From an uncultured Flavobacteriales bacterium (GTDB lineage: Bacteria > Bacteroidota > Bacteroidia > UBA10329), in assembly GCA_937900875.1 (NCBI GenBank), contig CALCGD010000083.1:1-48822 (forward strand): a DNA stretch of 48,822 nt. The letters run 5' to 3'. The first letter of the stretch is position 1; the number at the start of each line of letters is the position of its first letter. The position numbers and the translations under genes are program-made. Below are positions 4,388 through 47,484 of the stretch, piece after piece. Below the pieces are notes generated by a model, which had not been told where the DNA came from, did no database searches, and was given only the letters and a program-made list of their open reading frames with translations.

Positions 4388-5422
4388 ATGATTCAACCAC
4401 TCCAAGGCTACCGAATTCTCGATTTCACGAAGTTGCTTCCTGGTCCATTGGCAACACTTTGGATGGCACAGCAAGGCGCGGAGGTTATCAAAGTAGAAAG
4501 TCCAACATCTCCCGATCCTGTGCGGTTCTATCCACCCATGAAGGATGGTGTTTCGGTGTTTTACAACACATTGAATGCTGGCAAGAAAAGTCTCTCAATC
4601 GACTACCGTTCGGAAGAAGGAAAAGAAGCCATTCTGAAGCTGGTTGAAACCGCAGATGTGGTCATCGAACAGTTCCGCCCGGGCGTGATGAACGCTTTCG
4701 GCTTAGGTTATGAAACACTCAAAAAACGCAACCCGAAAATCATTCTTGTTTCCATAACGGGCTACGGACAAACAGGCGATATGGCCTCAAATCCTGGTCA
4801 CGATATCAACTACCTGAGTTATTCGGGAATGCTAGATGCACAACGAGATAGCAACGGAAACCCGATTATCTCTGCCGCTCAGTTGGCCGATGTTGCTGGT
4901 GGTTCTATGATGGCGTTGAACGCAACCGCTTCGGCTTTGCTTCATCGCGAAAGAAAAGGCGAAGGCCAGCATGTTGATGTTTCGATGACACACAACGTTT
5001 CTGTTTTGCAATCCATGCGCATTGCCGAGGAGCTGAATACGGGAACAAGCAACGGCTATTTATCAGGCAGATTGGCCTCCTACAATATCTACAAATGCGC
5101 TGATGGACGGCATGTTGCTTTGGGTGCTCTCGAACCCAAATTCTGGCAAAAGTTCTGTAACCTGATGGGACATCCCGAATGGGGAGGAAGGTTGATGGAA
5201 GTAGAACTGATTGCAGAAGTTCAAGAGATTTTCTCTTCACAATCCATGAAATATTGGACGGATAAACTCGAGAATGAAGGGGTTTGTCTTTCGCCCGTTT
5301 TGACTGTTCAAGAGTCGGCTAAACATTCACTTTTTAAGGCTGGCCTACCATCTCCTTTTGGATCAAGAGATCTCGGAACTGCACCAACGTTGGGAGCGGA
5401 TAATGATGAATTAGCCCCCTAA
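4388..5422 (+). CDS. CaiB/BaiF family CoA-transferase (alpha-methylacyl-CoA racemase type)
   Basis: The 344-residue protein opens with GYRILDFTKLLPGPLAT, typical of family III CoA-transferases. The three catalytic residues of the racemase branch can be placed: His138 in GHDINY, Asp168 in QLADVAGG and Glu249 in GALEPKF. This favours alpha-methylacyl-CoA racemase-like chemistry over formyl- or carnitine-CoA transfer. Family members are usually 360-390 residues. Here the last codons (LAP, stop) run into an intergenic repeat, so the C-terminus may have been shortened or replaced. It could supply the (S)-acyl-CoA form to beta-oxidation enzymes like those encoded at 16.5-20.6 kb; that link is inference. 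Confidence 0.9.
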   Translation: MIQPLQGYRILDFTKLLPGPLATLWMAQQGAEVIKVESPTSPDPVRFYPPMKDGVSVFYNTLNAGKKSLSIDYRSEEGKEAILKLVETADVVIEQFRPGVMNAFGLGYETLKKRNPKIILVSITGYGQTGDMASNPGHDINYLSYSGMLDAQRDSNGNPIISAAQLADVAGGSMMALNATASALLHRERKGEGQHVDVSMTHNVSVLQSMRIAEELNTGTSNGYLSGRLASYNIYKCADGRHVALGALEPKFWQKFCNLMGHPEWGGRLMEVELIAEVQEIFSSQSMKYWTDKLENEGVCLSPVLTVQESAKHSLFKAGLPSPFGSRDLGTAPTLGADNDELAP

Positions 5423-6829: not shown

Positions 6830-7258
6830 ATGGATTGGCTCGAATACGGCTATTGGGGATTATTTTTCGCGGCATTTTTGTCGGGCACGGTTGTGCCGTT
6901 TTCTTCTGAGGTCGTTTTGGCCGCTGGACTTTACTCAGGGATGGACCCTTTGACATCGCTTATTGTAGCCACCATTGGCAATTGGATAGGCGGATACACC
7001 ACGTTTTGGATTGGCCACTTAGGAAAGCTCGATTGGATTGAAAAGTACTTCCGAGTTAAGCACGAAAAATTGTTGGAGTGGGAGGGAACAGTCAACAAGT
7101 ACGGTGCGTACTTCGCTATTCTTGGTTGGCTACCTATTCTCGGAAATGTGATTTTACTTGCACTTGGTTTTTTCCACGCTAGACCTATTCCTTCTGCATG
7201 GTGGATGTTTGTTGGAAAAACCGCCCGATATGCAGCTATTATTTGGCTGATGAACTAA
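6830..7258 (+). CDS. YqaA-like DedA/VTT-domain membrane protein
   Basis: A 142-residue hydrophobic protein with three to four membrane segments. The region SGTVVPFSSEVVLAAGL near the N-terminus and the GNWIGGYTTFWIGHLGK segment are typical of the small YqaA branch of the DedA/SNARE-associated (VTT) family. These inner-membrane proteins are linked to lipid flipping and membrane homeostasis. The start at 6830 is an ATG placing the first hydrophobic segment at residue 9. The gene converges on the alpha/beta hydrolase, and the two stop codons overlap (TAG on the minus strand at 7255-7257, TAA on the plus strand at 7256-7258). Confidence 0.85.
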   Translation: MDWLEYGYWGLFFAAFLSGTVVPFSSEVVLAAGLYSGMDPLTSLIVATIGNWIGGYTTFWIGHLGKLDWIEKYFRVKHEKLLEWEGTVNKYGAYFAILGWLPILGNVILLALGFFHARPIPSAWWMFVGKTARYAAIIWLMN

Positions 7259-8091
7259 TTAGTCAACCATTTTAAAACCTCTTTTTTAACCAGTTCAGTT
7301 TCTGACCAAGGTAGAAGGTGGTCTCCATTTTTGATGGAGATTATTTGTAGGAACTCACTAGGAATAACCGTCTTGGAAAACTTGATATTCTCGTAAGGGA
7401 CAAGGCCGTCTTTTGTTCCGTGTAAGTGAATAAAAGGAACGGATACATGCTCCCATTTCGGAAGTAGAATATTCAACTGCTCCACGTGGGCATTTTTCTC
7501 GTCTGTAGCCACCATAAACAGATCGGGAGCCATCCACTTTGTCGCCTTCCACTTGGTTAATTTGGCGATACCCAATATCTTCTCGTTTTCTGGGTCTAAA
7601 GCAGGCGCAAGTAAAAGCGCTGCTTTAACTTTTTCAGGGTTATCAATGGCGAAGTTTGAAACAATTGGCCCTCCATATGAATGCCCAACTACAATTAACC
7701 AAGGGTATTGATAATGGGATAAGATTTTTACCAGTGCATCGCTTTGTTTCTGAATGGAAACTACAGATTCTCCTTGGTCATAAGGGCTGTAACCTAATCG
7801 ATCTACCGAAATCAAACGGGCTTGATTTAGCAGCGATGTATCGGCTAAAAAGTCATAAAAATTATTGGCTGAGCCAGGTGCTCCGTGTACGAAAAGTACA
7901 ATAGGAAGCGTGTCTTTATTAAGCGTTGAAACTTCAACCCAACGCAAAGGATGGTCGTAAATGCTATCGAGTTGGATGTTGCATTCTAATCCTCGCTTTT
8001 TGAAATACCTAAGTGTAGAATTGTCCGTTGCAATCATGGGAGAGCAACCGTACATGGTGGCTAGCAATAAAGCCAGCCAAAGCCTAATCAT
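7255..8091 (-). CDS. Alpha/beta hydrolase lipoprotein
   Basis: The N-terminus IRLWLALLLATMYGCSP is a lipoprotein signal with Cys16 as the likely lipidated residue. The rest is a complete alpha/beta hydrolase: oxyanion-hole HGAPGS, nucleophile elbow GHSYGG, acid Asp in HGTKDGLVPY and catalytic His in NGDHLLPW. It could be an esterase or lipase; the substrate is unknown. Its start overlaps the end of the upstream lipoprotein gene by 8 bases, so translation is probably coupled. It is the last gene of the long minus-strand run that includes the cytochromes and the retinol-saturase-like enzyme. Confidence 0.88.
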   Translation of the reverse strand: MIRLWLALLLATMYGCSPMIATDNSTLRYFKKRGLECNIQLDSIYDHPLRWVEVSTLNKDTLPIVLFVHGAPGSANNFYDFLADTSLLNQARLISVDRLGYSPYDQGESVVSIQKQSDALVKILSHYQYPWLIVVGHSYGGPIVSNFAIDNPEKVKAALLLAPALDPENEKILGIAKLTKWKATKWMAPDLFMVATDEKNAHVEQLNILLPKWEHVSVPFIHLHGTKDGLVPYENIKFSKTVIPSEFLQIISIKNGDHLLPWSETELVKKEVLKWLTN

Positions 8092-8608
8092 ACTTCACCC
8101 AAAAGGCAGAAGTATAACCACGCAAATCTCCACCTTGGGATGAATAGACAGGAATTCTTGGAGCTAGGCCTAAAATTTTACGGTCCAAAATGGAACCATC
8201 GGCATTGTAAGTCCATTGCTCACTGAAAGTAAGTCCGTAGAAATTTTGGCTGTAATCGCGTTCAAGTATATCAATTGATTTATCGCCTGTTTCAGGTTCC
8301 TCGAACCAAATTGTATCCGTGAATTGGAGGATTGATTTCACTTGTTCAGCGGTCAATACCTCATCCGAAAAACGGTCATATGCCTTCAGTTTTCCTGCAA
8401 GCACATCTCCAATAAGCTGCTCGGCAATGGGAGCAACATCCGAAAAATCTTCATCGTTTAAATCCTGATGAAAAACGGAGTTTAAATCAACCGCATATTC
8501 CATGGTCTTTGTCCATGTTTGGGTTGAAATTGCTTCGGTTGGAGCCTCTGTTGGCTGCTGGTCGCAGGCCACAAAACCAATCAATAAAAGCGGGATTAAC
8601 TTTTTCAT
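8084..8608 (-). CDS. Small lipoprotein, weakly GldN-like
   Basis: A 174-residue protein with a clear lipoprotein signal (MKKLIPLLLIGFVACDQ, Cys15). The C-terminal half (FSEQWTYNADGSILDRKILG, then LAPRIPV and SAFWVKYD) is reminiscent of the C-terminal part of GldN/PorN, a T9SS core component. In GldN a strand-rich segment followed by ILGIAP and an FW(I/V) motif ends the domain. The similarity is by eye only and is weak. GldN itself is longer and normally sits in the gldKLMN operon, which is not here. The start ATG overlaps the stop of the upstream retinol-saturase-like gene by 4 bases, and its end overlaps the hydrolase start by 8, so it is firmly in this operon. Confidence 0.75.
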   Translation of the reverse strand: MKKLIPLLLIGFVACDQQPTEAPTEAISTQTWTKTMEYAVDLNSVFHQDLNDEDFSDVAPIAEQLIGDVLAGKLKAYDRFSDEVLTAEQVKSILQFTDTIWFEEPETGDKSIDILERDYSQNFYGLTFSEQWTYNADGSILDRKILGLAPRIPVYSSQGGDLRGYTSAFWVKYD

Positions 8609-10233
8609 GCTGTTTCTTTTTTCATCTTTTCTCGATCCTTCAAAACCTTGTCTACAATCTTATCTGTTAACCAGAAATTGGATGTGACATGTGCTGCAGT
8701 AAGCAGTCCGCTCATAAGCGCACCGCCAATTCCAACGGTAACGATATCCTGTCCTGTTAGGTAGAGATTTTTGATAGATGTTTTAGGCCGAAGATCTTTC
8801 ATTCTGAAACGGGCAGGGGAGTGGTCTAAACCGTAAATCTCGCCATGCTCATAATTCACGAAATGCTTGGTTGAAAGTGGCGTAGAAAGCTCATAATAAT
8901 CAATCTTCCCTTCCAATTGAGGGAACTGCTTGTAAAGTTCTTTTAGCAATCGCTGTGAGAATTCCTCTTTGTACGCTTCGTACTCTTCGCCACGGTGTTT
9001 CCAGCGCTCATCTTCCCACTTGGCAAACCATTCGTAAGGCGCCAGCGTAATCATTTCGATGGTGCTCTTTCCTGGATAACGCTCTTCCCATTCGGGGTCT
9101 TTAAGCGAAGGAAACGAGATGTAAGTAACTGGAAATGGCTTGCTTTTATCCGCCATGTATTCTTTTACGCCACGGTCGTGATCGTTATGCGGATACACCC
9201 AATAATTGGTGCTTCCAATGCCGAGTTCGCGCAAATCTTGCTTCAATCCGATATAAAGACAAACGTGCGACACGGATGGAGGAACGCCTTTTTCGGGTTT
9301 GAAGCCAATCGCATCCTGAACGTCTTGATCAAGCAGTCTTCCGAATGTGTTTAGATAACCAGCGCCACTTACAATCATTGGAGCATTAACTGTAGAACCG
9401 TCTTCCATCAGAACGCCAGTCGCTTTTCCGTTCTCAACAATAATCTTCTCAACTCCTGCACGAACGGCAACTGCGCCACCTGCTTTTTCAATTACAGGAA
9501 TAATGGTTTCTGCAATTCTTTGACAACCACCAACGGGAAATGCACCGCCTTTCCAATAGTGTTTGTTCACCACCGATTGAATGGCAAAACTGCTTTCTCC
9601 AGGAGGCATTCCGTGGTCGCCATACTGGCCAGCCAACACGCCTTTAAGTTCCTTGTTGTCCGTTATTTTGTCCAAAACCTCCGAAGTTGTTTTGTCAGAC
9701 CACTCGTAATATTTCTTGGTTAAAAGTCCACCAACAAGCTTGCTTAAAATGGTTGGCAACGCTCGTTCTTGAAAGAATTTTCTATTTGAAGAAGTTGCTT
9801 TATAAACGGTTTCAATGTATTTGTCAATAGCGGCTTCCTCACCAGGAAAACGCTCATAAAGCATTTCAATAAAGTTCTCTTTACCCGATTTGAAATCGTA
9901 CGAATTATCGCCAAGAATAACGCGGTCGTAAACCTCGTCCATTTCCTTCCATTTCAGCTTATAATCCGATATGTAGTCGAACAAAATAGACATGAAGGTG
10001 AACTCCTTGTGAACATCTCCAACGTAGTGAATTCCTACATCCCATTCGTATTCTTTACGCTTAAAAATGTGCGTAAATCCGCCTGGAACGTAGTGCTTTT
10101 CTAACAACAATACTTTCTTGCCTTGTTGCGCCATAATAGACCCAAAAGTCATGGCGCCAAGACCCGAACCGATAACGATGGCATCATAACCATCTTTCTT
10201 TTCAAGTCGTTTCCAAGGTGTTCCTACTGCCAT
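8605..10233 (-). CDS. Retinol-saturase-like FAD oxidoreductase (phytoene desaturase superfamily)
   Basis: A 542-residue FAD enzyme. The N-terminal ADP-binding fold (DAIVIGSGLGAM, residues 17-28) and the VPGGFTHIFKRKEYEWDVGI stretch match the all-trans-retinol 13,14-reductase/carotenoid isomerase branch, where GGCCHTF...FDVGIHY is usual. The C-terminus also follows that branch: GEIYGLDHSPARF, then KNLYLTGQDIVTVGIGGALM, where vertebrate RetSat has a TGQD motif before its last helix. Expected chemistry is saturation, desaturation or isomerisation of a polyene or isoprenoid. No signal peptide is seen; the GALMSGLLTA helix could rest on the membrane. It lies 15 bases downstream of an RDH-like dehydrogenase and is coupled to the next lipoprotein gene. 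Confidence 0.88.
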   Translation of the reverse strand: MAVGTPWKRLEKKDGYDAIVIGSGLGAMTFGSIMAQQGKKVLLLEKHYVPGGFTHIFKRKEYEWDVGIHYVGDVHKEFTFMSILFDYISDYKLKWKEMDEVYDRVILGDNSYDFKSGKENFIEMLYERFPGEEAAIDKYIETVYKATSSNRKFFQERALPTILSKLVGGLLTKKYYEWSDKTTSEVLDKITDNKELKGVLAGQYGDHGMPPGESSFAIQSVVNKHYWKGGAFPVGGCQRIAETIIPVIEKAGGAVAVRAGVEKIIVENGKATGVLMEDGSTVNAPMIVSGAGYLNTFGRLLDQDVQDAIGFKPEKGVPPSVSHVCLYIGLKQDLRELGIGSTNYWVYPHNDHDRGVKEYMADKSKPFPVTYISFPSLKDPEWEERYPGKSTIEMITLAPYEWFAKWEDERWKHRGEEYEAYKEEFSQRLLKELYKQFPQLEGKIDYYELSTPLSTKHFVNYEHGEIYGLDHSPARFRMKDLRPKTSIKNLYLTGQDIVTVGIGGALMSGLLTAAHVTSNFWLTDKIVDKVLKDREKMKKETA

Positions 10234-10248
10234 ATTATTCTGTGGTTT

Positions 10249-11106
10249 TTATGCTGGAAAAACTTGTCCAACCAATTCCTCGCTCTTTTTCCAAAGCGCC
10301 TTTGCATTTTCTGGGTCTTGAGATGGCTTATTACTCCATTCCTGCTTGCTTCTCACCCAATAATGCCCTGTTACACCTTCTGCTTCTGGCGATGAAGCCA
10401 AATGGATAGAAGTTGCGGCACCTTTCTCAACCGTAATCATGAACGGTTTCATTACAATCCAACCAAGCTTTGTAAACCAGTTGGCATTTTTCTCGGCTAT
10501 TTCGGTTCGTACTCCTCCAGGATGAACTGCGTTAACCGTAATGCCATCTTTTTCGAGTCGTTTTGCAAGCTCTTTTGTGAAGAGAATGTTGCAGTATTTG
10601 CTTCGCGAATAGGCTTTCCAGCCACCATATTCGTCTTTCTCGTAATTGATATCATCCAAGTTTAATTCACGCGTAGACTTGTGCGCAATAGAGGATAAAT
10701 TGACGATGCGAGCTTTTCCTGCTGCCTTGATGTTATCGAGGATCAAATTTGTCAAGAGAAAATGACCAATGTGATTGGTTCCGAATTGCATTTCCAGTCC
10801 ATCTCCGGTTAGTTGCAATTCTGAAACGTAGCAGCCAGCATTGTTCACCAACACATCGATTTGCGGACATTTAGACTTCAGTTCCTCAGCCGCTTTACGA
10901 ACGGACTTCTGAGAACTCAAATCCACAAGAACGTAGCTCACAGCCTCGTTTCCTGAAGCTGATTTTATTTCAGCAATCGCAGTTTTCGCCTTGTCTTCAG
11001 AACGTGAAGTGATTACTATCTCCGCTCCTTTTTTCGCTAATGCGATGGCTGTGGCCTTACCGATTCCAGCATTTCCGCCAGTAATTACAACTGTTTTTCC
11101 CTTCAT
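10249..11106 (-). CDS. Short-chain dehydrogenase, retinol dehydrogenase (RDH11-14)-like
   Basis: A 285-residue classical SDR. The cofactor motif is TGGNAGIG (residues 9-16), followed by NNAG (88-91), the catalytic serine in NLSSIAH (138-139) and YSRSK (Tyr166, Lys170). Arg36 after the second strand suggests NADP(H). The overall pattern (GLEMQFGTNHIGHFLLT, RIVNLSSIAH, LFTKELAKRL, VNAVHPGGVRTE, then a KGAATSIHLASSPE region) follows the vertebrate RDH11-14 and WWOX-like group. It would interconvert an alcohol and an aldehyde or ketone. Its ATG shares one base with the stop of the upstream beta-helix cytochrome gene, and a retinol-saturase-like gene follows. Retinoid is one possible substrate, but other lipids are equally open. 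Confidence 0.9.
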   Translation of the reverse strand: MKGKTVVITGGNAGIGKATAIALAKKGAEIVITSRSEDKAKTAIAEIKSASGNEAVSYVLVDLSSQKSVRKAAEELKSKCPQIDVLVNNAGCYVSELQLTGDGLEMQFGTNHIGHFLLTNLILDNIKAAGKARIVNLSSIAHKSTRELNLDDINYEKDEYGGWKAYSRSKYCNILFTKELAKRLEKDGITVNAVHPGGVRTEIAEKNANWFTKLGWIVMKPFMITVEKGAATSIHLASSPEAEGVTGHYWVRSKQEWSNKPSQDPENAKALWKKSEELVGQVFPA

Positions 11107-12593
11107 TATTTGTTAATCGAAAGCATGTATTCAGCAACGGCTAACCGGGTTTCTTCCGTCAGGTAATTCTGAGGAGGCATTTCTGGGAAATCCTCTCTTT
11201 TACGAATCGGTGCATTGATGTAGTCTGCAATTCCTTGCGGATTGTCTTTGTAAAGTGCTTGAATAATCTGTGTTGGAGGTCCAATCATACGAACATCATA
11301 AGCATGGCACCCAGAACAAACCCCGTAGAAAGCCAATTTCCCTTTCTCATCTTGTTCAATTACGCGTGGTGCAACTGGCTCGCTAAGTAGGTATGATTTT
11401 ACATCATCTGTGCTTTCCAATTCGCAGGAAGCATAACCGTCTAATCCCCAAGTACGATACATGTCTCGGTTGCGAATGCAGCTTCCAACTCCGCCACCGT
11501 TGGCTAAAATATCTGGCCCTTTGTCATCAAACTGAGTTGCCATTGCGGCTTTAATATCAGCTACAGGGTTATTTCCATTGTTGTACATCACGTTATCCAA
11601 GATTACAACGCGATCTGGGTTTGGTTCGGCATCTGGGTCTTTAGAAAGCTGAGAACCGAAACTGAGGTCGGTAATAGCGATGCCCGTATTGTCATTTCCT
11701 GTAATAATATTGTTCTCAATAATCACATCATCGGCAGCCATTACAATGATGCCTGTTCCAGCAGGTAGGAGAGAGATAATGGCTCCTGGTTTTCCGAAAT
11801 TTGGGAGGTTGTTGTCCACCACAAAATTGTCGCGAATAATTACGTCATAACAGGTTTTGATAGGAAGCCCTGGCGTGATGAATGCTAGAATTCCGCCTGT
11901 GTTATTGTGGGTGTAGTTATTCTCAACCAAGCAGTGACGCGAGTTTTCAATTTCAATTCCTGCTACGCTTTCAAACACCTCGTTGTGGCGCACATCAATG
12001 TTGTCGCACATACCAACGTAAATGGCAGCATCGGCAATTCCTTGAAGCACATTGTGTTCAATCAGGCCGTTTTTTCCAAACTCTGGGAAGATGCCGTAAA
12101 CTCCCGATTCAATAATCCAGTTGTTTCGAATCAGGAAGTTGTTTCCCGCTTGCCCCATGATACCGTTCCCTTTGTATTGAACGATTTTGAAGTTTTCAAT
12201 CAGAATGTTTGAACCTGAGTAAAGAATCGCATCGTTTAGGACAGGCTCACCATCCTTGCTGCCATCCATTGTTGGCCAATTCCCTTTCTGAATTACCCCT
12301 TGTAGACTGATGTTGTCTTTATCGATATAAACCGTTTCGTGATATGTGCCTGGGAACACCCGAATCAAATCGCCAGGATTAGCCTTACCCACTGCATCTT
12401 GAATGGATTCTCCATCCCTCACTTCTATCACTGTTTTTTCTGAAAGGTCAACCGCCATGGAACCATCGCCACCTTCAAAAAATGTTGGTGGCGGAGCTGC
12501 TGGACCCGAAGCAGAGAACTTCACCTTTCCAATATAAAGTCCAGCGGCAAAAACAATGGCGCTCACAATTATTAAGACTAGAAACTTTTTCAT
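11106..12593 (-). CDS. Parallel beta-helix protein (TIGR03805 type) fused to C-terminal cytochrome c
   Basis: A 495-residue exported protein. The N-terminus (KKFLVLIIVSAIVFAAGLYIG) is an uncleaved anchor or a signal peptide. Residues from about 60 to 350 form a right-handed beta-helix (DGESIQDAVGKANPGDLIRV, VAGIEIENSRHCLVENN, NNTGGILAFITPGLP, LLPAGTGIIVMAADDV). This matches the TIGR03805 family, which I recall as usually paired with a diheme cytochrome of the SO_2930/TIGR03806 family. After a linker, residues 426-430 read CSGCH and Met472 (EMPPQ) is the likely distal ligand: a monoheme cytochrome c domain in the same chain. It lies 33 bases after the MauG-like gene and overlaps the SDR start by one base. 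Confidence 0.88.
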   Translation of the reverse strand: MKKFLVLIIVSAIVFAAGLYIGKVKFSASGPAAPPPTFFEGGDGSMAVDLSEKTVIEVRDGESIQDAVGKANPGDLIRVFPGTYHETVYIDKDNISLQGVIQKGNWPTMDGSKDGEPVLNDAILYSGSNILIENFKIVQYKGNGIMGQAGNNFLIRNNWIIESGVYGIFPEFGKNGLIEHNVLQGIADAAIYVGMCDNIDVRHNEVFESVAGIEIENSRHCLVENNYTHNNTGGILAFITPGLPIKTCYDVIIRDNFVVDNNLPNFGKPGAIISLLPAGTGIIVMAADDVIIENNIITGNDNTGIAITDLSFGSQLSKDPDAEPNPDRVVILDNVMYNNGNNPVADIKAAMATQFDDKGPDILANGGGVGSCIRNRDMYRTWGLDGYASCELESTDDVKSYLLSEPVAPRVIEQDEKGKLAFYGVCSGCHAYDVRMIGPPTQIIQALYKDNPQGIADYINAPIRKREDFPEMPPQNYLTEETRLAVAEYMLSINK

Positions 12594-12626
12594 ACTAACG
12601 GAGTGGAATTAGGGGTTGAAAATTGA

Positions 12627-13823
12627 TTAAGGCTTTGAAGGTAATCGATCTGGACGTTTTGGCATAAAACTTTCGTCTGTCAATGTTTGCAGGAAATCTA
12701 CCAGTCTGTCAAGTTCAGTATCCGATAAATTTGGTTCCCAAATATGCCAATGCAAGTAGAGATTTTCACCTTCGGGAACAGCATGGCCGCGCCCTTTGGT
12801 ATAAAACTCAACGGTTTCTCTGAGCGTTTTGAATCTGCCCGAATGCATGTATGGTGCTGTGAGCGCTACATTTCGCAGACTCGGGATTTTGAATGCGCCA
12901 CGGAGTGAGCCATCCTTGTAAGGAACTTCGGCTCCAGGATCTAAAGGTCTTCCATCTGGTTCGGGTGTTCCCAGAACCGCTAACTGTTGATTGGTGAAAA
13001 GCGGAGGAGTGTGGCACTCAGCACATCGCGCCACAAACGAACGAAAAACATTCATCCCTTCGATCTCATCCTTGTTCAAGGCGCCATGAAAACCGTGTGC
13101 ATATTGGTCATAACGGCTGTTGAGCGAAATGAGCGAACTTTCAAATGCAGCCAACGCCAGATAGACCTGTTCGAGTTCAATTTCCGTTTTGTCCTTATTT
13201 GGAAACGCCTCTTGGAACATCTTCCTGTAGGCAGGAATAGAGTTTATGGTTTCGTGAAGTTGATCTGGAGTGGTTCCCATTTCATCTTCTGAGAAAAGCG
13301 GCCCTTGCATTTGCGACTCGAGTGTAGAATCTCGTCCATCCCAAAAGAAAAGCTGTAGAAACGCAACATTCCAAAGGCTTGGCGCTCCGCGTTTTATGGG
13401 TTCTCCCAAAATCCCAATACTTCTGTCTAAGCCATCGCCAAAACCTTTTTCGGGCTGATGGCAGGTGGCGCAACTAATGGTTCCGTCTTTAGATAGAATT
13501 GGATCGAAAAAGAGATAACGACCAAGGTCAATTTGTTGTGGTGTAAATCCATCTCTAACCCGTGGAAGCGCGGTTTTTAATCCGCCAACACCCTTGTCCG
13601 TTAACGAAGCATACTGCTGATAAAGAGAACGTAATTTGCAAACACCATCATCAGTCAATTCAAACCCGGGAGGACAGCTGTTACACAGTTCAAAATCTCC
13701 AGATGATTCGGAAATTACGTTTTGAAAACCGTCTTTATTGGTTGGTTCTAGTTCTTTTTCGCAGGAAATAAGGCCAGCAATAATGGCCAGGGTTATACTG
13801 ATTCCTGCAAACGTTTTTCTCAT
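12627..13823 (-). CDS. Diheme cytochrome c peroxidase / MauG-family lipoprotein
   Basis: A 398-residue lipoprotein (signal ending GLISC, Cys21) with the two-domain layout of the CCP/MauG family. The first heme is at CATCH (118-122) after LGRYLFFDPILSKDG, and the second at CAECH (267-271). SLWNVAFLQLFFWDGRD and SLRNVALTAPYMHSGRF are the usual conserved stretches. Members either reduce peroxide or carry out high-valent oxidations on a partner protein. I cannot tell which, because the residue ligating the second heme is not certain. An extra N-terminal CNSCPPGFELTDDGVC segment is cysteine-rich but not a heme site. It overlaps the upstream cytochrome gene by 4 bases. Confidence 0.92.
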   Translation of the reverse strand: MRKTFAGISITLAIIAGLISCEKELEPTNKDGFQNVISESSGDFELCNSCPPGFELTDDGVCKLRSLYQQYASLTDKGVGGLKTALPRVRDGFTPQQIDLGRYLFFDPILSKDGTISCATCHQPEKGFGDGLDRSIGILGEPIKRGAPSLWNVAFLQLFFWDGRDSTLESQMQGPLFSEDEMGTTPDQLHETINSIPAYRKMFQEAFPNKDKTEIELEQVYLALAAFESSLISLNSRYDQYAHGFHGALNKDEIEGMNVFRSFVARCAECHTPPLFTNQQLAVLGTPEPDGRPLDPGAEVPYKDGSLRGAFKIPSLRNVALTAPYMHSGRFKTLRETVEFYTKGRGHAVPEGENLYLHWHIWEPNLSDTELDRLVDFLQTLTDESFMPKRPDRLPSKP

Positions 13824-14512
13824 TCAGGCTGTAGCGAATTGATGTACGCAATAACGTCTTTTACGGTCTGGTCATCAGGAATTGCGGTAGCTATTTGTTG
13901 CATTTGCGCACCGTAAGTGTCGTCTTGTTCGGTACCTCGAATGCCTTTGCGGAAATTGTTGATTTGGCGCTCTAAATACCAGTCTTGCATGCCTGCTAAT
14001 CGAGGTGAGAAAAGGGCTTCAATTCCTATAGCTCCCGTTCCGTGACAAGCGCCACAAATCATGTTGTAATAATTCTTTCCATTCTCCACATTTCCACCTT
14101 CTAGGGTGATTTCTGGCTTTGTTGAAGGCATTGTTTTGATGTATGCGATTACATCATTAATGGCATCACTGTCTAGTGTTTTGGCAAACGTTGCCATTTG
14201 GGCACCGAAGGCATCTTCAGCATGAGCACCTCGCTTGTTGGTTCTGAAATTTTGAAGCTGTTGCTTCAGGTAATAAGGTTCTTGGTCAGCCAAAGCTGGT
14301 GCTCCTAAAGCAAGCATTCCCTCCGCTTTTTGTCCGTGGCAGGTAGCGCACGTGATGTAAAGCGATTTTCCTTTTGTTGCGTTGCCGGTAATTGCAGTTT
14401 TCTCGGCTACAACTGGTTCCTTTTCTCCAGTTTTCTCTTCAGGAGAGGAGCCGCAACCAATCGCCATCAATATTGAGGTTACAGCGGCAATTAATCGTAT
14501 GTGTTTGAGCAT
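13820..14512 (-). CDS. Diheme cytochrome c lipoprotein (c4-like)
   Basis: A 230-residue lipoprotein (MAIGC, Cys20) made of two cytochrome c domains of about 80 residues. Hemes attach at CATCH (55-59) and CGACH (153-157). Conserved Met residues follow in GAQMATFA and GAQMQQIA, giving His/Met ligation as in cytochrome c4. Each half ends with an IAYI helix. It is anchored outside the inner membrane, or on the periplasmic side of the outer membrane, and should pass electrons between the MauG-like protein and a terminal oxidase or bc1-type complex; that role is inferred. It is a tandem paralogue of the next upstream gene and overlaps the MauG-like gene by 4 bases. Confidence 0.92.
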   Translation of the reverse strand: MLKHIRLIAAVTSILMAIGCGSSPEEKTGEKEPVVAEKTAITGNATKGKSLYITCATCHGQKAEGMLALGAPALADQEPYYLKQQLQNFRTNKRGAHAEDAFGAQMATFAKTLDSDAINDVIAYIKTMPSTKPEITLEGGNVENGKNYYNMICGACHGTGAIGIEALFSPRLAGMQDWYLERQINNFRKGIRGTEQDDTYGAQMQQIATAIPDDQTVKDVIAYINSLQPE

Positions 14513-14571: not shown

Positions 14572-15261
14572 TTAATAGTACGTAGGCTTTCTGGTTTGTA
14601 AGGTGTGTATGTAGGTAATCACATCATCAATGGCTTGATCATCCGGAATCTGCTTTAACATCTCTAGCATTTTAGCACCTGTTGTGTCGCCTTCTGAAAC
14701 TCCCCTTATACCATCACGGAAATGCCTAATCTGCGCAGTCATGTAGTAATCTTGAATGCCAAGAAGATTTGGAGATAGGTAAGCTTCAATTCCTTTAGCA
14801 TCTATACCGTGGCACGTAGCGCATACTTCATTGTAATAATGCTTGCCGTTCTCCACATCACCATAAATGGTTTGGTCGGTTTGCAAACGGGGCAAAAGTT
14901 TGATGTAGGCGATAATGATTTCTAGTTGCTCGTCCGTCTCAATCATCTTGGCTTGCAATGCCATAACAGACCCCAGCGTATCGTGAGGATGCGCCCCCCG
15001 TTTTCCAGAGAGAAAATTATTGAGTTGTTGGCGCAAGTACCATGTTTCTTGATTAGCCAACGCAGGAGCGTTAAATGCTTTTACTCCTTCGGCATTATGC
15101 CCGTGACATACCGCGCATTTTGTGAAAAGAACCTTTGCTTCTGCAAGCTTTTCTTGACTCAGTTGGATACTGTTGTTTACCGTCTTGGTTTCTTCGGGAT
15201 TAGAACAACTAGCGAAAATTAGAATGGAAAGAGCTACGAGAAGAATTGATTGGTATGACAT
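14572..15261 (-). CDS. Diheme cytochrome c lipoprotein (c4-like), paralogue
   Basis: A 229-residue lipoprotein (IFASC, Cys19) with two cytochrome c domains. Heme sites are CAVCH (49-53) and CATCH (147-151), with distal Met in GSVMALQ and GAKMLEM. Its order of motifs (APALANQETWYLRQQLNNF, then VENGKHYYNEVC) is nearly the same as in the next gene, so the two arose by tandem duplication. A 59-base gap separates them. It is the first cytochrome of the run, and a TAACTTTG -7-like box sits just upstream of its ATG, so the redox part of the cluster may have its own promoter. Confidence 0.92.
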   Translation of the reverse strand: MSYQSILLVALSILIFASCSNPEETKTVNNSIQLSQEKLAEAKVLFTKCAVCHGHNAEGVKAFNAPALANQETWYLRQQLNNFLSGKRGAHPHDTLGSVMALQAKMIETDEQLEIIIAYIKLLPRLQTDQTIYGDVENGKHYYNEVCATCHGIDAKGIEAYLSPNLLGIQDYYMTAQIRHFRDGIRGVSEGDTTGAKMLEMLKQIPDDQAIDDVITYIHTLQTRKPTYY

Positions 15262-15290: not shown

Positions 15291-16493
15291 TTAGTAGGTC
15301 ATACCAACTGGCAGCCCTTCAATTCTAAGCACGGTAACCCCATGTTTTGGAACTTCAAATGTCAAATTTTCCGAAGGAATATTCGTTTTTGTCCAAAGAT
15401 TACGCATCGTGAATGCCGCATTCGGGTCAATTCCTACGCTTTTCAAATCAAGTTCAATTGTTTTTGAACTACCTGATCGATTTAGCAATACGACTGCTAC
15501 GATTCCGCTTTTTAATGAACCTAGTGGCTTTGCCCAAATCTCTTGTTTGCCGTAAGTAGCCAGTTTTCGTGCTTGGTACGCCAAGGAATCTTGGTTCAAT
15601 GCAATCACCTCCTTGTTGGTAAGAATTTCTATTGTCTGCTGGCTCATCTCTCGTAGATCGTTTCCAGCCAAAAGCGGGGAGTTGAGCATGCACCACATGG
15701 TAAAATGAGTTTTGTCTTCGTCATACGTCATACCGCGCCCAACCTGCAACATGTCCATATCATTGAAATGACCTGCAGAACTGTATTCCCATAAATCCGT
15801 GTTCAAATCAAGAATGTGCATCACTGAAGAAAAAGTGGGGCGAATGTCTCCTGAAATCCGCCACGAATCTGCCACATCTAGTGCCCATTCTCCGGGAAAT
15901 TTCCAGCGGCAAATGTTGTAAAGAACATCAGGTCGAATGCTGCGAATGTGTTTTCCGATTTCGGTATATCGCTGTTGGTCGTCCAACTTCATGCCTCTAC
16001 CTCCACACCAGTCTATTTTGATGAAATCGTAGTCCCAATCTAGTAGTAGCAGCGTCAAATCGCTCGCGTCATAACCATACAGTCCAACACCTTTGCCAAA
16101 TTTATCATGCTGCGAAATGGACGCACAAGTGTTGTTGCCTGCATCCGAATAAATACCTGCTTTAAGACCTTTTGAATGAATGTATTCGGCTAAGATTTTC
16201 ATTCCAGTTGGAAACTTTTCTGGATGGGGCAAAAGGTTCCCGCTGCTATCCCTACCGCCAAAATAACCGTCATCAATATTGATGAAAGTGTACCCAGCGT
16301 CTTGCATGCCAGATGAGACCATGGCATCTGCTTGTCCACGAATCATCTGTTCGTCAATGTCAATATGGAAATGATTCCAACTGGACCAGCCCATAATTGG
16401 GACTTTTGGACGATTGTCCTCCTGTCCAAAAAGGGCTGTACTTGTTAATACCAGAACCGAAATGACAAAAATGTATGTGGTTCGGCTCATCAT
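15291..16493 (-). CDS. GH27 alpha-galactosidase-like exported protein
   Basis: The track starts inside the upstream fadJ-like gene. The ATG at 16493 (or 16490) gives a clean signal peptide (SRTTYIFVISVLVLTSTALFG) and begins 4 bases after the fadJ-like stop. GH27 signatures follow in order: MGWSSWNHF at the start of the barrel, INIDDGYF, AGIYSDAGNNTC, the nucleophile Asp in FIKIDWCGG, and the acid/base Asp in WRISGDI. A small C-terminal beta domain (WAKPLGSLKSGIVAVVLLNR) ends the protein, as in other members. It should hydrolyse alpha-galactosides, or a related sugar, outside the inner membrane. Its place behind beta-oxidation genes is unusual and its role there is not clear. Confidence 0.92.
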   Translation of the reverse strand: MMSRTTYIFVISVLVLTSTALFGQEDNRPKVPIMGWSSWNHFHIDIDEQMIRGQADAMVSSGMQDAGYTFINIDDGYFGGRDSSGNLLPHPEKFPTGMKILAEYIHSKGLKAGIYSDAGNNTCASISQHDKFGKGVGLYGYDASDLTLLLLDWDYDFIKIDWCGGRGMKLDDQQRYTEIGKHIRSIRPDVLYNICRWKFPGEWALDVADSWRISGDIRPTFSSVMHILDLNTDLWEYSSAGHFNDMDMLQVGRGMTYDEDKTHFTMWCMLNSPLLAGNDLREMSQQTIEILTNKEVIALNQDSLAYQARKLATYGKQEIWAKPLGSLKSGIVAVVLLNRSGSSKTIELDLKSVGIDPNAAFTMRNLWTKTNIPSENLTFEVPKHGVTVLRIEGLPVGMTY

Positions 16494-16497
16494 GGAT

Positions 16498-18627
16498 TTA
16501 CTGGTAGAATTTCTCTCCTGCTTTGGCCTTATCCACAATAATTTGCGGTGGTAAGAAACGCTCACCATGTTTCTCTGCCAGTCGGTTAAAGATGTCCACG
16601 GTTTCTTGCGCGCCTAGCGTGTCCATATAGCGGAATGGTCCACCACGGAAAGGAGGGAAGCCAAGTCCGAAAACGGCACCAACATCGCCATCCAACGGAT
16701 TGGCAATGATGCCTTCTTGAAGACAAAGAGCGGCTTCGCTTACCATGCTCATTCCGATGCGCTCATAGATTTCTTTGTCGTCAAACTTCTTGCGCGTTGA
16801 ACCGCCAAAGAAGTTGTAAACGTTATCATCGAGCTCACGCATGTTCTTGCCGTTCTCGTCATACTTGTAAAAGCCTTTCTTGTTCTTTCGACCGTAGTAT
16901 TCAGCTTCGTACATTTTGGTTATTCCATCCGAAGTTTTAACTCCCTTTCTGGTTGCGATAAAGTGCTCAATCAAATCTCCAGTCATGATGTGATAACCAA
17001 CATCAATTCCAACTTCATCCATTAGTGTAATTGGTCCAACAGGGAAACCGAATTTCTTCAATGCTTTATCGATTTGAAGTGCATCAGCACCTTCATCAAG
17101 CATATTCAATGCTTCGCCCATCAATGGTGCAAGAATTCTTGTGGTATAAAATCCAGGACCATCTTTTACAACAATCACTGTTTTTCCTTGTCGGACGCCT
17201 AAATCGTAGCATGTAGCTGTTACCCAATCAGCGGTTTGATCGGTAACCACAATTTCCAACAACGGCATTTTAGGAACTGGAGAGAAGTAGTGCATCCCAA
17301 TTACCTGCTCAGGTCGTTTGCTTGCTTTCGCGATTTCCGTAATCGGAAGAGCGGAGGTGTTAGAAGCGAAAATGGCATCCTTACTCAAGTGCTCTTCGCA
17401 CTCTTTCATCACCGTGTGCTTCACTTTCATGTCTTCAAAGACTGCTTCAATTAGCACATCAACCTTATCGAAATTATTGTAATCCAATTGTCCGTTTACA
17501 CGGTTCATCAAACGGTCGGCATCCAACTGGTTCATAGCTTTGCGCTGCACCTTTTTTCCGATGTCGCCCCAAATGGTTTTGCGGGCTTGAGTTAATGTTT
17601 CCTGCTTGATATCTTTCAGTAGAACACGCACATCTTTGGCGGCCGAAACCTGAGCAATTCCAGCGCCCATAAATCCTGCACCAACCATGGCCATTGTGTT
17701 GGTCTTTTTAGCCAACGCTGCCTGCGGGTTTTTCTTCTTATCTGTCATGGCGAAGAAAATGCCACGAAGTTGGAAGCTTTCAGGAGTAAGAATGAGTTTT
17801 TCGAAGCGTTTCACCTCTTCGGCATAGCCTTTTTTCTCGCCAGAACTCATTCCAATTCGGACACATTCCATAATCTCGTAAGGCGCAGGATAGTTGCCTT
17901 TTGTTTGGCGATCCACCATCTCTTTTGCCTTCTTGAAAATGATGTTCCGAGTAACCGGATTTCCTTCCAAGAACTTCTCCATTCCAGAGCGTTTATCTTC
18001 ACGCTTGAATGGTCGCTTAGCAATTTCATTTGCAAGAATAATGGCCGCATCTAGCAACGCTTCTTTGGTAGCAATACGATCAACCAATCCCATCTTTTTG
18101 GCAGGATAAGCGAACACATTCTTACCGGTAAGCATCATGTCCAATGCTTTCTGAATACCTACCAAACGTGGCAAACGCTGTGTACCGCCACCTCCAGGAA
18201 GCAGTCCAAGTTTAACCTCAGGCAAAGCCATGATTGTCTTTGGATTGTCGGAAGCCACACGCGCAGAACAGGCCAAAGCGATTTCTAACCCAGCACCCAT
18301 GCACGCACCGTTGATGGCGGCTACAATCGGCTTTTTGCTGTTTGCAATACGATCAAGAATTTGGTGGCCTTTTTCGGCAACTGGTTGCCAGTCGCCTTCT
18401 TTCTTCACATTGGCGAAAGCTTCGATATCAGCACCAGCAATAAAGTCCTTCTTGCGGCTAATCATTACCGCAGCACGCACTTCGCTGTCGTTCTCCAATT
18501 CATCCATCATTGGGTTGAACGTGTCAATCATATCAGGACCAATCTTGTTGATTTTTGAGTCTTGCTCGTCCATCCAAATGATGGCGATACCATCACGTTT
18601 TTCTATTTCAACGTACTTGTTCCTCAT
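16498..18627 (-). CDS. fadJ: Multifunctional enoyl-CoA hydratase / 3-hydroxyacyl-CoA dehydrogenase (FadJ/FadB-like)
   Basis: A 709-residue fusion. The N-terminal crotonase part has the CoA/oxyanion motifs GADIEAF and NGACMGAGLEIALAC and the catalytic Glu in LPEVKLGLLPGGGGTQRL. The C-terminal dehydrogenase part has the NAD fold VGAGFMGAGIAQ, the SNTSALPITEIA stretch and the catalytic His in GMHYFSPVPKMPLLE, then two HAD C-terminal domains ending FPPFRGGPFRYMD. It carries out the hydration and oxidation steps of fatty acid beta-oxidation. Only one base separates it from the upstream T9SS cargo gene, which in turn overlaps the thiolase gene, so all three form one transcript. The symbol is by homology; fadB is an alternative. 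Confidence 0.93.
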   Translation of the reverse strand: MRNKYVEIEKRDGIAIIWMDEQDSKINKIGPDMIDTFNPMMDELENDSEVRAAVMISRKKDFIAGADIEAFANVKKEGDWQPVAEKGHQILDRIANSKKPIVAAINGACMGAGLEIALACSARVASDNPKTIMALPEVKLGLLPGGGGTQRLPRLVGIQKALDMMLTGKNVFAYPAKKMGLVDRIATKEALLDAAIILANEIAKRPFKREDKRSGMEKFLEGNPVTRNIIFKKAKEMVDRQTKGNYPAPYEIMECVRIGMSSGEKKGYAEEVKRFEKLILTPESFQLRGIFFAMTDKKKNPQAALAKKTNTMAMVGAGFMGAGIAQVSAAKDVRVLLKDIKQETLTQARKTIWGDIGKKVQRKAMNQLDADRLMNRVNGQLDYNNFDKVDVLIEAVFEDMKVKHTVMKECEEHLSKDAIFASNTSALPITEIAKASKRPEQVIGMHYFSPVPKMPLLEIVVTDQTADWVTATCYDLGVRQGKTVIVVKDGPGFYTTRILAPLMGEALNMLDEGADALQIDKALKKFGFPVGPITLMDEVGIDVGYHIMTGDLIEHFIATRKGVKTSDGITKMYEAEYYGRKNKKGFYKYDENGKNMRELDDNVYNFFGGSTRKKFDDKEIYERIGMSMVSEAALCLQEGIIANPLDGDVGAVFGLGFPPFRGGPFRYMDTLGAQETVDIFNRLAEKHGERFLPPQIIVDKAKAGEKFYQ

Positions 18628-18628
18628 G

Positions 18629-19366
18629 TTATTGAAGTGCTATTTTTTGTGATTTCGTTCCGTTTGAATTTTCAAACCGGACGATATAATTGCCTTTTGC
18701 TAAGTGGCTTAATCCGTGGTGGGTAAAGCCTTCTTGAATTTCCTTTGTAAAGTGGATTCGCCCGTCCAATCCTAAAACTGTGAGGACTCCGTAATCTTGG
18801 GTTGTGATAGATATGCCTCTGAGGTTCACAGTTATTTCGATTGATGTTGCTTCCGTTTCTTCAATTCCGACTGATGGACTGACATAGCAAGGGACAAGTG
18901 TTGGAATTGGATAAAGCGCATACGTGTTTCCGCAGACAGCTTCAGTGGATGCTCCATCTATGCCACACGTGTACTCTTGCCCAGATGTTGTAGGTGTGCC
19001 GATGGCTCTAATATGGAAGTTAAGTATTGCGGCATTGCTTGCAGCCGAAATTCCTAATCCTGTGGTGCTTGGAGTAAATGAAGTTGAATCACCAACATTG
19101 ACCGTGGCCCATCCGTTCATCATAAATGTATTTGAAGGATAAGGTTCGTCTATAATTAGCACGAACTCTAATCCATCAGGTAAAAGAAGCTGAGCGAAGT
19201 CCAGTATAAAATCTGTTCCGTCATTGAATGTGCAAGTTCCTGGCGATTGGTAAGTTCCGACATAAACAATGTCATTTCTGAATACTCCTTGGACGTAAGG
19301 GTCAACAAGAATCTGAGCCTGCGACTCTACCGCAACCAATAAAAAGAAAGCGATTAAAAGTTTCAT
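18629..19366 (-). CDS. T9SS type A cargo protein of unknown function
   Basis: A 245-residue secreted protein: signal peptide (LLIAFFLLVAVESQAQ), a beta-rich central part of about 140 residues with four cysteines that I do not recognise, and a C-terminal type A sorting domain. In the latter, VGIEETEAT is followed by LTVLGLDGRIHFTKEI, LSHLAKGNYIVRF and GTKSQKIALQ. The protein should cross the outer membrane by the type IX system and be released or attached to A-LPS. Its ATG overlaps the thiolase stop by 4 bases and its stop is one base from the FadJ-like start. A cell-surface protein locked between two cytoplasmic beta-oxidation genes is odd; see findings. Confidence 0.85.
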   Translation of the reverse strand: MKLLIAFFLLVAVESQAQILVDPYVQGVFRNDIVYVGTYQSPGTCTFNDGTDFILDFAQLLLPDGLEFVLIIDEPYPSNTFMMNGWATVNVGDSTSFTPSTTGLGISAASNAAILNFHIRAIGTPTTSGQEYTCGIDGASTEAVCGNTYALYPIPTLVPCYVSPSVGIEETEATSIEITVNLRGISITTQDYGVLTVLGLDGRIHFTKEIQEGFTHHGLSHLAKGNYIVRFENSNGTKSQKIALQ

Positions 19367-20646
19367 GCTTCGTATCGTTCAAGTATGCAAGCATGTCCGT
19401 GAGCACCAGCAGCACAAGCGGCTAAAAGACCGTATTTACCACCTTCGGCAATTAGTCGGTTTGCAGTTGTTGTCATAATTCTAGCGCCAGTTGCTCCGAA
19501 TGGATGGCCGATAGAAAGCGATCCGCCCCAAAGGTTCATTTTGTCCATTGGAATTTGACCTACTGCTTTTTCAAGGCCGATGTTCTTTTGACAGAATTCA
19601 TCTGATGCCAAAGCCGCAATGTTTGCCAAAATCTGTCCGGCAAATGCCTCATGGAATTCAATTACGTCCATGTCGTCCATTTTCAAACCATTGCGTTCCA
19701 AGATTTTTCCCATCGCGTAAGCAGGTCCTAGAAGCAGTTCCTCACGAATATCTTGACCTGTGAAAATATAATCGTGGATGTACGCTTTTGGCGTATATCC
19801 AAGTTCCTTGGCTTTCTCTTCACTCATAATCAAAACTGCTGCAGCACCATCTGTAAGGAAAGATGAATTGGCAGCGGTTAAAGTCCCATGCGGTTTTACA
19901 AACGCTGGCTTTAGTTTAGCTAGTTTTTCAATAGGAGCAACGCGAATTCCGTTGTCTTTGTCAATCGGTTTGAAGTTTGGCGCTAACTCAACTGCAACAA
20001 TTTCTTTGGCTAGAATTCCATCATCTTGCGCTTTTTGAGCCATTGTGTGAGAGCGTAATGCAAATGCATCTTGGTCTTCGCGCTTAATGTTGAATTTAGC
20101 GGCAAGCATATCGCAATCCTGTCCCATCAATCGGTCCGTCAAAAACTCTGCAACTGCTGGTTTGTCTGGAAAGAAATCGGAGATTTTCAAGGTCATCGCG
20201 AACTTAATCATGTCGCCAGTTGTCTTCAGCTTTTGGGCGTTGAACAACTTCTTTCGCATGCTCTTTTTGTAACCGATAGGGGAGTCTGAAGTACAATCGG
20301 TACCTCCACAAATAATAACATCAGCTTGACCCAAGCGAATCATGTCTGCAGCTCTAGAAATGGCTTGGTTTGCAGAAATACAAGCTTGTGAAACTGTTTG
20401 ACAAGGCGTGCTCATATTCAAACCTGCGGTAAGTGCAGATTCTCGGGCAACATTTGGAGTCTTCACGTTATGAACCACCGTTCCCATCACCACCTGATCT
20501 ACATCATCAGGGTGAATTCCTGTTTTGTCCAAAACACCTTTAATGGCGAAGGCTCCCAATTGGTAGCTCATCAAATCCATGTAATCCGTTCCAGAACGGA
20601 GGAATGGAGTCCTTGCTCCATCAATTAAAACAACTCGTTTGCTCAT
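19363..20646 (-). CDS. fadI: Acetyl-CoA acyltransferase (FadI-like thiolase)
   Basis: A 427-residue thiolase. The acylated cysteine is Cys89 in SQACISANQA, the His is in GHPFGATGAR and the second Cys in LAACAAGAHGHACILE. Length and the MSKRVVLIDGARTPFLRSG start fit the FadI/mitochondrial trifunctional-beta branch rather than AtoB. It releases acetyl-CoA in the last step of beta-oxidation and is probably partner to the FadJ-like protein two genes downstream. It is the first gene of the run, with a TACATTTG -7 box and an inverted repeat upstream. Confidence 0.92.
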   Translation of the reverse strand: MSKRVVLIDGARTPFLRSGTDYMDLMSYQLGAFAIKGVLDKTGIHPDDVDQVVMGTVVHNVKTPNVARESALTAGLNMSTPCQTVSQACISANQAISRAADMIRLGQADVIICGGTDCTSDSPIGYKKSMRKKLFNAQKLKTTGDMIKFAMTLKISDFFPDKPAVAEFLTDRLMGQDCDMLAAKFNIKREDQDAFALRSHTMAQKAQDDGILAKEIVAVELAPNFKPIDKDNGIRVAPIEKLAKLKPAFVKPHGTLTAANSSFLTDGAAAVLIMSEEKAKELGYTPKAYIHDYIFTGQDIREELLLGPAYAMGKILERNGLKMDDMDVIEFHEAFAGQILANIAALASDEFCQKNIGLEKAVGQIPMDKMNLWGGSLSIGHPFGATGARIMTTTANRLIAEGGKYGLLAACAAGAHGHACILERYEA

Positions 20647-45645: not shown

Positions 45646-47484
45646 ATGTATCGTTTTTCTGTTCTCTGTGTCATTGCTCTGGTAATCTCGTGTAATCAAA
45701 TCGAAAATGGAAGCCAGGCTGATTCCAAAGAGAAGGAACCGATTGGTGGTCCGCTTGAGATGTTTCCCGCTGCAGTAACCTTTTCGGATGATTGGTCTCG
45801 GGAAAACACGATGGTTTATCATGTATTAGGAGAGCCAGATGATATGCATCCTACTAATGGAGGCTCTGCGCTTAAGTCGTTCATTTTTACGTTAACGCAA
45901 GCGCATCTGCTAGAGCCAGATTCTAAAAGTCCAACAGGAGTCAAACCAGGCTTAGTTCAATCCATGCCGGTTGTTTCTGGAGATGGTCTTGCGTACACCT
46001 ATAAACTACGTTCTGAACCGAAGTGGGACAATGGAACAGCCATAACTGTACGTGACGTAATCTTTAGTCTAATGGCTGCAAAATGCCCTTTGACGAACAA
46101 CCCACATCTGAAGCCGTACTTAGAGAACCTTAAATCAGTCAAAATCGACTCGTCAAATGAACTAAGCTTCACAATAATTATGAAGGAAAGAAATGTTCTT
46201 AATATGGCGTTTCTAACAGGTTTTCCATTGATGCAAGAAGCTTATTGGGATAGCGCTATGACGCTTCGCAAGTACACTTTTCAGTAGTTTGACGATGAAA
46301 AATTTAACCCCGATTCTGAACCAAAGTTGCAGTTATGGGCGACCGAATTCAATAGTGCCAAGTATTCAAGAAACCCCGAGTACCTAGTTGGTATAGGGCC
46401 GTACCGTTTTCACGAATGGAAACCAGGTCAATCCTTCACCTTAATCAGGAAAAAAGCACATTGGTCTTTCCAAAAACAATCAGAAGTTGGGCCGGACGAA
46501 ATAATATTTAAAATTAACGCTGATCCTAATTCTCATATGCTTGAGTTCAAAACTCAGGTTTACGATGGCTCTCAATATCTTGCTTCTAAAGACCTATACA
46601 CTCTTCAGAACAACGAAGGGTTTTCAAGTAATTACAATTCAGCGGTAATCCCAAGTTACAATTACACATACTTGGGATTAAATTGTAGACCCGATGGTAT
46701 CAAACATCAAAAACTGTTTAACGACCAACTTGTTAGAAGGGCCATTGCGCATGCAATTCCTTATGATGCAATTAATGAGATTGTGAATTTTGGTGTAGCC
46801 ATGCGAGTCGCTGGTCCGGTGTCGCCATTGAAAGAGGAGTGCAATTCAGAACTCTTACCAATTGCTTCTAACTTGGACGTTGCTGCTGTAATGTTGGATA
46901 AATCTGGTTGGATTGACACTGATGGCGACAACATTCGAGATAAGATTATTGTTGGTGTTCGTGTTCCGTTTAAGTTCGATTTACACTATATGAATGCACC
47001 AGCAAGCTGGGCTACGCAGGCAAGTTTAATAGCTGAATCTCTAAAAGAAATTGGAGTGGAGTGTAATCCTGTTGCAATGAGTTTTGCGGTGTTGAGACAG
47101 CGAAATAAGTTACACGATTTCGATGCCATGTTAAGTGCTTGGGCAGGTTCGTCATTACCAGAAGATTACACACAAATTTGGGGAACAGAATCTTGGGCCA
47201 ATCAAGGGTCAAATTACGTAGGATTTGGAAACCCAGCCGCTGACCAATTGATTGATTCCATCAAATACGAAGTGAATATTGACAAGAGAAATGCACTTTC
47301 GTTTCAATTACAAGAATTGATTTATAAAGAGCAGCCGTACGTGTTTCTATTCGCTTCAACCAAACGGATTGTTGCGCATAAAAGGTTTTCAAACGTTACG
47401 GTAAGCTCCGAACCACCGCATGTATTCCTCCATGATTGGTGGCTCGGTTCTAATGTTCTCATCAAAGATGAGCAGGTTCCGTAG
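45646..47484 (+). pseudogene. Peptide/nickel-type ABC substrate-binding lipoprotein, interrupted by in-frame TAG
   Basis: Two track ORFs (45646-46287 and 46327-47484) are in the same frame and form one 612-codon gene, split by a single TAG at 46285-46287 (CAG TAG TTT GAC). The first part has a lipoprotein signal (CVIALVISC) and the SBP_bac_5 start YHVLGEPDDMHPTNGG, then SGDGLAYTYKLR and KWDNGTAITVRDVIFS. The second part continues smoothly (FNSAKYSRNPEYLVGIGPYRFHEW, a GLNCRPDGIKH stretch, VRRAIAHAIPYDAI) to a normal end. There is no frameshift and no decay elsewhere, so the stop is recent, a read-through codon or a sequencing error. The second ORF has no ATG of its own near its start. Intact, it would bind oligopeptides or similar for import. 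Confidence 0.85.
46285..46287 (+). other. Premature in-frame TAG codon
   Basis: Reading frame is open for 213 codons before and 399 codons after this TAG. One base change from CAG, TTG, TCG, GAG, AAG or TGG would explain it. Confidence 0.9.

Follow-up and report, generated by a model that had tools for sequence, protein, structure and literature searches.

In retinol, RETSAT reduces the 13,14 double bond. In the avian BCO2-RDH12-RETSAT pathway it acts downstream of BCO2 and RDH12 on galloxanthin, which derives from zeaxanthin (PMC4947394), so retinol is not the only substrate of the family. A comparable chemistry operates on the dolichol route, where DHRSX and SRD5A3 apply an oxidise-saturate-reduce logic to polyprenol (PMC11607601). 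Both systems pair a short-chain dehydrogenase/reductase (SDR) with a double-bond reductase acting on an isoprenoid alcohol or aldehyde, and the bacterial locus described here may present a similar pairing. A search of one literature collection for bacterial RetSat proteins found nothing.

The window, the whole 48,822-nucleotide stretch analysed, corresponds to one contig of a 3.6 Mb assembly comprising 355 contigs and estimated to be 96% complete (contig C83). An earlier note had described a retinol-dehydrogenase-like gene and a retinol-saturase-like gene lying 15 bases apart. Both open reading frames are intact, lie on the minus strand and are separated by that distance:

8605..10233, minus strand: RetSat-like FAD-dependent oxidoreductase, 542 aa (GSGLG dinucleotide site, Pfam, NCBIfam, alignment, tree and AlphaFold2 model)
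10249..11106, minus strand: classical SDR of the RDH11-14/WWOX/PRK06197 group, 285 aa (motifs, Pfam, NCBIfam and alignment)

Family assignment of the two proteins

The RetSat-like protein matches Amino_oxidase/NAD_binding_8 in Pfam (E about 1e-8), contains an N-terminal FAD-binding GxGxxG motif and a full-length CrtI-like fold, and falls below every NCBIfam cut-off. Its top-scoring NCBIfam model is TIGR02730, the carotenoid isomerase model representing plant and cyanobacterial CRTISO, yet the score of 152 bits is far under the cut-off of 586.9. TIGR02730 gives the same score to a second CrtI-like protein encoded in this genome, so it cannot place the window protein and was dropped as a classifier. 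Among the CrtI-type models, the RetSat-like protein reaches only 93 bits with NF058655 (cut-off 640) and 91 bits with TIGR02734 (cut-off 238), whereas the genome's own CrtI exceeds both cut-offs, with 745 bits for NF058655. The window protein also lies outside the CrtI clade in the phylogenetic tree, although it shares superfamily and fold with the CrtI-type phytoene desaturases. A CrtI identity, and with it the alternative placement in a CrtI-like clade that the earlier note had considered, was thus ruled out.

Comparison with human RETSAT, using a reference sequence that was not drawn from a database, yielded 36% identity over 541 aa, end to end, at 329-347 bits. Against the same reference, the genome's CrtI and two other CrtI-like proteins gave 22-25% identity and 60-139 bits, and RetSat orthologues from other families and phyla gave 280-387 bits, except for a divergent subset. 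The motifs GIHYxG, FPSxKDPxWExRxPGxST, YEWFxxW, FPQLEGK and NLYLTGQDIxTxGxxGAL are common to the window protein and the RETSAT reference. In a maximum-likelihood tree with long outgroup branches, the RETSAT reference and the bacterial clade, which spans Bacteroidota, Acidobacteriota, Myxococcota and Chloroflexota, were joined with support of 96/87. The AlphaFold2 model (pLDDT 91.7) has as its nearest solved fold the gamma-carotene desaturase 4REP (TM 0.75/0.82), followed by plant and Pantoea phytoene desaturases. The description as retinol-saturase-like was borne out by identity and tree, and the sequence evidence is a strong lead for placing the protein in the RetSat branch of the CrtI-like superfamily, within a large bacterial clade that groups with vertebrate RETSAT. 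It differs from vertebrate RETSAT in lacking the N-terminal membrane/ER targeting segment (N-terminus MAVGTPWKRLEKKDGYDAIVIGSG), and its context is cytosolic.

The SDR matches adh_short in Pfam (E 2e-40) and carries the classical motifs TGxxxGxG, NNAG and YxxxK in the form TGGNAGIG, NNAG and YSRSK. An Arg residue following beta-strand 2 (TSR) suggests a preference for NADP(H). The best NCBIfam models are PRK06197 and PRK06196, the former at 243 bits, slightly under its cut-off of 268. Identities to reference sequences that likewise came from no database are 41% for RDH13, 38% for RDH11 and 36% for WWOX, and orthologues in other Bacteroidota families reach up to 58%. The N-terminal membrane anchor of the RDH11-14 type is absent (N-terminus MKGKTVVITGGNAGIG). 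The designation retinol-dehydrogenase-like consequently holds for the wide RDH/WWOX/PRK06197 group and no more narrowly, and the generic SDR placement that the earlier note had named as its counter-case applies to this protein. Because this group is wide, with varied substrates and many non-retinoid enzymes, no substrate can be deduced for the SDR from its family.

Gene order and its conservation

The two genes belong to a run of 12 genes, all on the minus strand, extending from 20646 down to 7255, with gaps of no more than 59 bases and many overlaps of 1 to 8 bases. In the order of the run, its members are as follows:

19363..20646, minus strand: FadI-like thiolase (acetyl-CoA C-acyltransferase), the first gene (TIGR01930, 404 bits, over the cut-off of 240.55)
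second in order, minus strand: secreted protein
16498..18627, minus strand: FadJ-like enoyl-CoA hydratase/3-hydroxyacyl-CoA dehydrogenase (PRK11154, 841 bits, cut-off 869)
15291..16568, minus strand: GH27-type alpha-galactosidase
14572..15261, minus strand: di-haem c4-like cytochrome c lipoprotein, the first of two in run order
13820..14512, minus strand: di-haem c4-like cytochrome c lipoprotein
12627..13823, minus strand: di-haem CCP/MauG-family lipoprotein with two CxxCH sites
11106..12593, minus strand: right-handed beta-helix protein with a C-terminal c-type haem site, CSGCH (TIGR03805, over the cut-off)
the SDR and the RetSat-like gene, as listed above
8084..8608, minus strand: small lipoprotein with weak GldN similarity, overlapping the RetSat-like gene by 4 bases
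7255..8091, minus strand: alpha/beta hydrolase with a lipobox

A terminator scan detected no terminator-like site in the gaps of the run; the scan does not capture Bacteroidota promoters. From the gene order, we infer that the run forms one long transcription unit. On the opposite strand, at 4388..5422 (plus), lies a gene for a CaiB-family protein that carries the motif GHDINYL and is similar to alpha-methylacyl-CoA racemase; this gene may or may not be part of the same system. Elsewhere in the window, positions 20877-45607 encode three consecutive giant repetitive secreted proteins (4422, 2089 and 1633 aa) that contain HYR/PKD-like repeats and have C-termini of a gliding/T9SS-like kind, and a peptide/oligopeptide-binding-protein gene at 45646-47484 is apparently split into ORFs 45646-46287 and 46327-47484.

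Within the genus, the order of the SDR, RetSat and flanking genes is kept in G003, G005 and G006, and the genes are grouped in G002. The run of G003 comprises FadI, FadJ, cytochrome c, CCP, beta-helix, SDR, RetSat, lipoprotein and hydrolase; the alpha-galactosidase and the first of the two cytochromes are missing from it. The section from cytochrome to hydrolase is kept in G002, and also in G005 and G006, where one additional gene, for a beta-helix or another protein, is present. The contigs of two further congeners, G001 and G007, end within the run. The arrangement was not found in the congeners G004 and G008, nor in any other family examined; in G008, a GldN-like small lipoprotein is also encoded three genes away from RetSat. 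Within the genus, the arrangement is not due to chance. The earlier note's statement that the genes are adjacent in one operon is accurate in that the adjacency is real and its order conserved in several congeners, but that adjacency is confined to some members of a single genus.

Beyond this genus, RetSat generally stands by itself. Among 79 named loci, it has no close same-strand neighbour in 51 and variable neighbours otherwise; the SDR adjoins it in a single locus, L122, which comes from this genus, and no useful conserved neighbours were found in other taxa. Since G004 carries RetSat and no SDR orthologue was found there at E<=1e-50, the SDR is not an obligatory partner. Across genomes, RetSat accompanies the SDR (about 45% identity or more) in 22 of 29 cases (Fisher p 2e-17), with 10 shared families (p 3e-6), both match lists being biased towards relatives of the query. 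A hand count over the listed members of three families gave SDR frequencies in RetSat carriers versus non-carriers of 4/10 versus 3/5 (f28), 2/4 versus 2/4 (f2) and 0/5 versus 1/7 (f20). The co-occurrence arises from differences between families and was dropped as a sign of functional coupling.

These observations bear on a serious rival explanation, in which the cytochrome/CCP/beta-helix unit, the SDR and RetSat are unrelated modules placed in one operon, with regulation as their only common feature. All three occur apart elsewhere, on three separate contigs in both G008 and G053, and the haem-protein unit (window 11106-14512) is conserved as three genes in at least four families. The co-occurrence of SDR and RetSat between but not within the hand-checked families points in the same direction. 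Against co-location without a common substrate stand the very tight spacing, the 1- to 8-base overlaps and the order conserved in several species; we consider it improbable overall, while giving it real weight.

Relation to retinal and carotenoid synthesis

A carotenoid cluster with crtI, crtB and a lycopene cyclase gene is present on another contig of the genome (C37), which excludes the possibility, considered previously, that the organism has no isoprenoid source. A CrtZ-looking gene was recognised by motif only, without a model match. The C37 cluster reaches the contig end and includes no rhodopsin or Blh gene. The genome's two other CrtI-like proteins, CrtI/CRTISO-like FAD enzymes, are encoded in a further cluster on contig C152 (L056:8857-17236), together with a 1290-aa MMPL/acyltransferase/methyltransferase fusion and a protein similar to tryptophan halogenases; this looks like an aryl-polyene/flexirubin-type lipid cluster.

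The earlier note had raised the idea of a retinoid-clearing pathway, in which the SDR would reduce retinal to retinol and RetSat would saturate retinol to dihydroretinol. The family resemblance of both proteins speaks for such a role, as does the adjoining pair of Blh and rhodopsin genes in the congener G001. However, searches of the 96% complete assembly, with positive controls from relatives such as G001, returned no match to Blh or bacterial rhodopsin. Class-wide, across 395 genomes including 47 carriers of a RetSat orthologue (39% identity or more), Blh occurs in 11 of the 47 carriers and in 59 of the 348 other genomes (Fisher p 0.31); RetSat presence is independent of Blh. Among 39 relatives, 12 of the 16 RetSat carriers show no rhodopsin match. 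The retinal/rhodopsin link was accordingly rejected through co-occurrence, and retinoid clearance appears very unlikely. In G001, the Blh and rhodopsin genes cluster on contig C308 (L057) with CrtI, CrtB, a second CrtI-like enzyme, a CruF-like protein and a lycopene cyclase. The genome of G008 has a rhodopsin (contig C21, L103/L121) and a lycopene cyclase domain match without a Blh or phytoene synthase match, possibly reflecting an assembly gap.

A carotenoid or apocarotenoid tailoring role would have the SDR reduce an apocarotenal and the RetSat-like enzyme saturate the product, just as avian RDH12 and RETSAT, exactly these two families, process zeaxanthin cleavage products (PMC4947394). The genome's CrtI, CrtB, lycopene cyclase and motif-based CrtZ-looking protein are compatible with this role, and RetSat co-occurs weakly with phytoene/squalene synthase (odds ratio 2.2, p 0.046, uncorrected for phylogeny). 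Nevertheless, 9 of the 47 carriers, from several families and including G002, have no match to the phytoene/squalene synthase family (PF00494), and no carotenoid-synthesis gene recurs beside RetSat in the loci examined. The congener G002, 98% complete, has no matches to PF00494, TIGR03462, Blh or rhodopsin, and no phytoene synthase or lycopene cyclase match, yet it keeps the complete operon with RetSat intact. The gene is under purifying selection, with dN/dS of 0.03-0.06 overall and 0.04-0.06 for G002, synonymous sites there being near saturation. Because G002 retains a constrained gene without those matches, carotenoid or retinal synthesis is unnecessary for keeping RetSat, and we regard tailoring as a rather unlikely function of the pair.

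Proposed function and significance of the RetSat family

We favour a reading, to which we give about an even chance, in which an FAD-dependent saturase or isomerase and an NADP(H)-dependent SDR act on an alcohol or aldehyde that is lipophilic and probably isoprenoid, for catabolism or detoxification. The RetSat-like protein would be membrane-peripheral and would saturate or isomerise one double bond of a long, hydrophobic substrate, while the SDR would serve as an oxidoreductase for the alcohol or carbonyl groups of lipophilic compounds. Both genes would, in this lineage, have been assembled into one transcription unit behind the beta-oxidation genes FadI and FadJ and the periplasmic cytochrome unit, with a role in processing an isoprenoid or other unsaturated lipid alcohol or aldehyde. 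Since FadI and FadJ head the run, such lipid processing would be the most economical reading, with a role in vitamin-A chemistry less likely. It may also be that FadI/FadJ and the alpha-galactosidase are just co-located.

A more specific and quite improbable version of this reading is an allylic-alcohol saturation module. The SDR would turn an isoprenoid allylic alcohol such as polyprenol, phytol or geranylgeraniol into the enal, whose alpha double bond the RetSat-like enzyme would then saturate; the saturated compound would either be re-reduced or enter beta-oxidation through FadI/FadJ, perhaps with the racemase-like protein. If true, the module would be a counterpart of the DHRSX-SRD5A3 dolichol route of eukaryotes that uses another saturase, SRD5A3 not being known to be homologous to RetSat.

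For these bacterial genes, the labels "all-trans-retinol 13,14-reductase" and "phytoene desaturase" would be misleading. The RetSat clade covers at least four phyla, usually occurs as a solo gene and is distributed independently of retinal genes, so the family's original substrate was probably not a retinoid. Once identified, that substrate would tell what RETSAT did before vertebrates.
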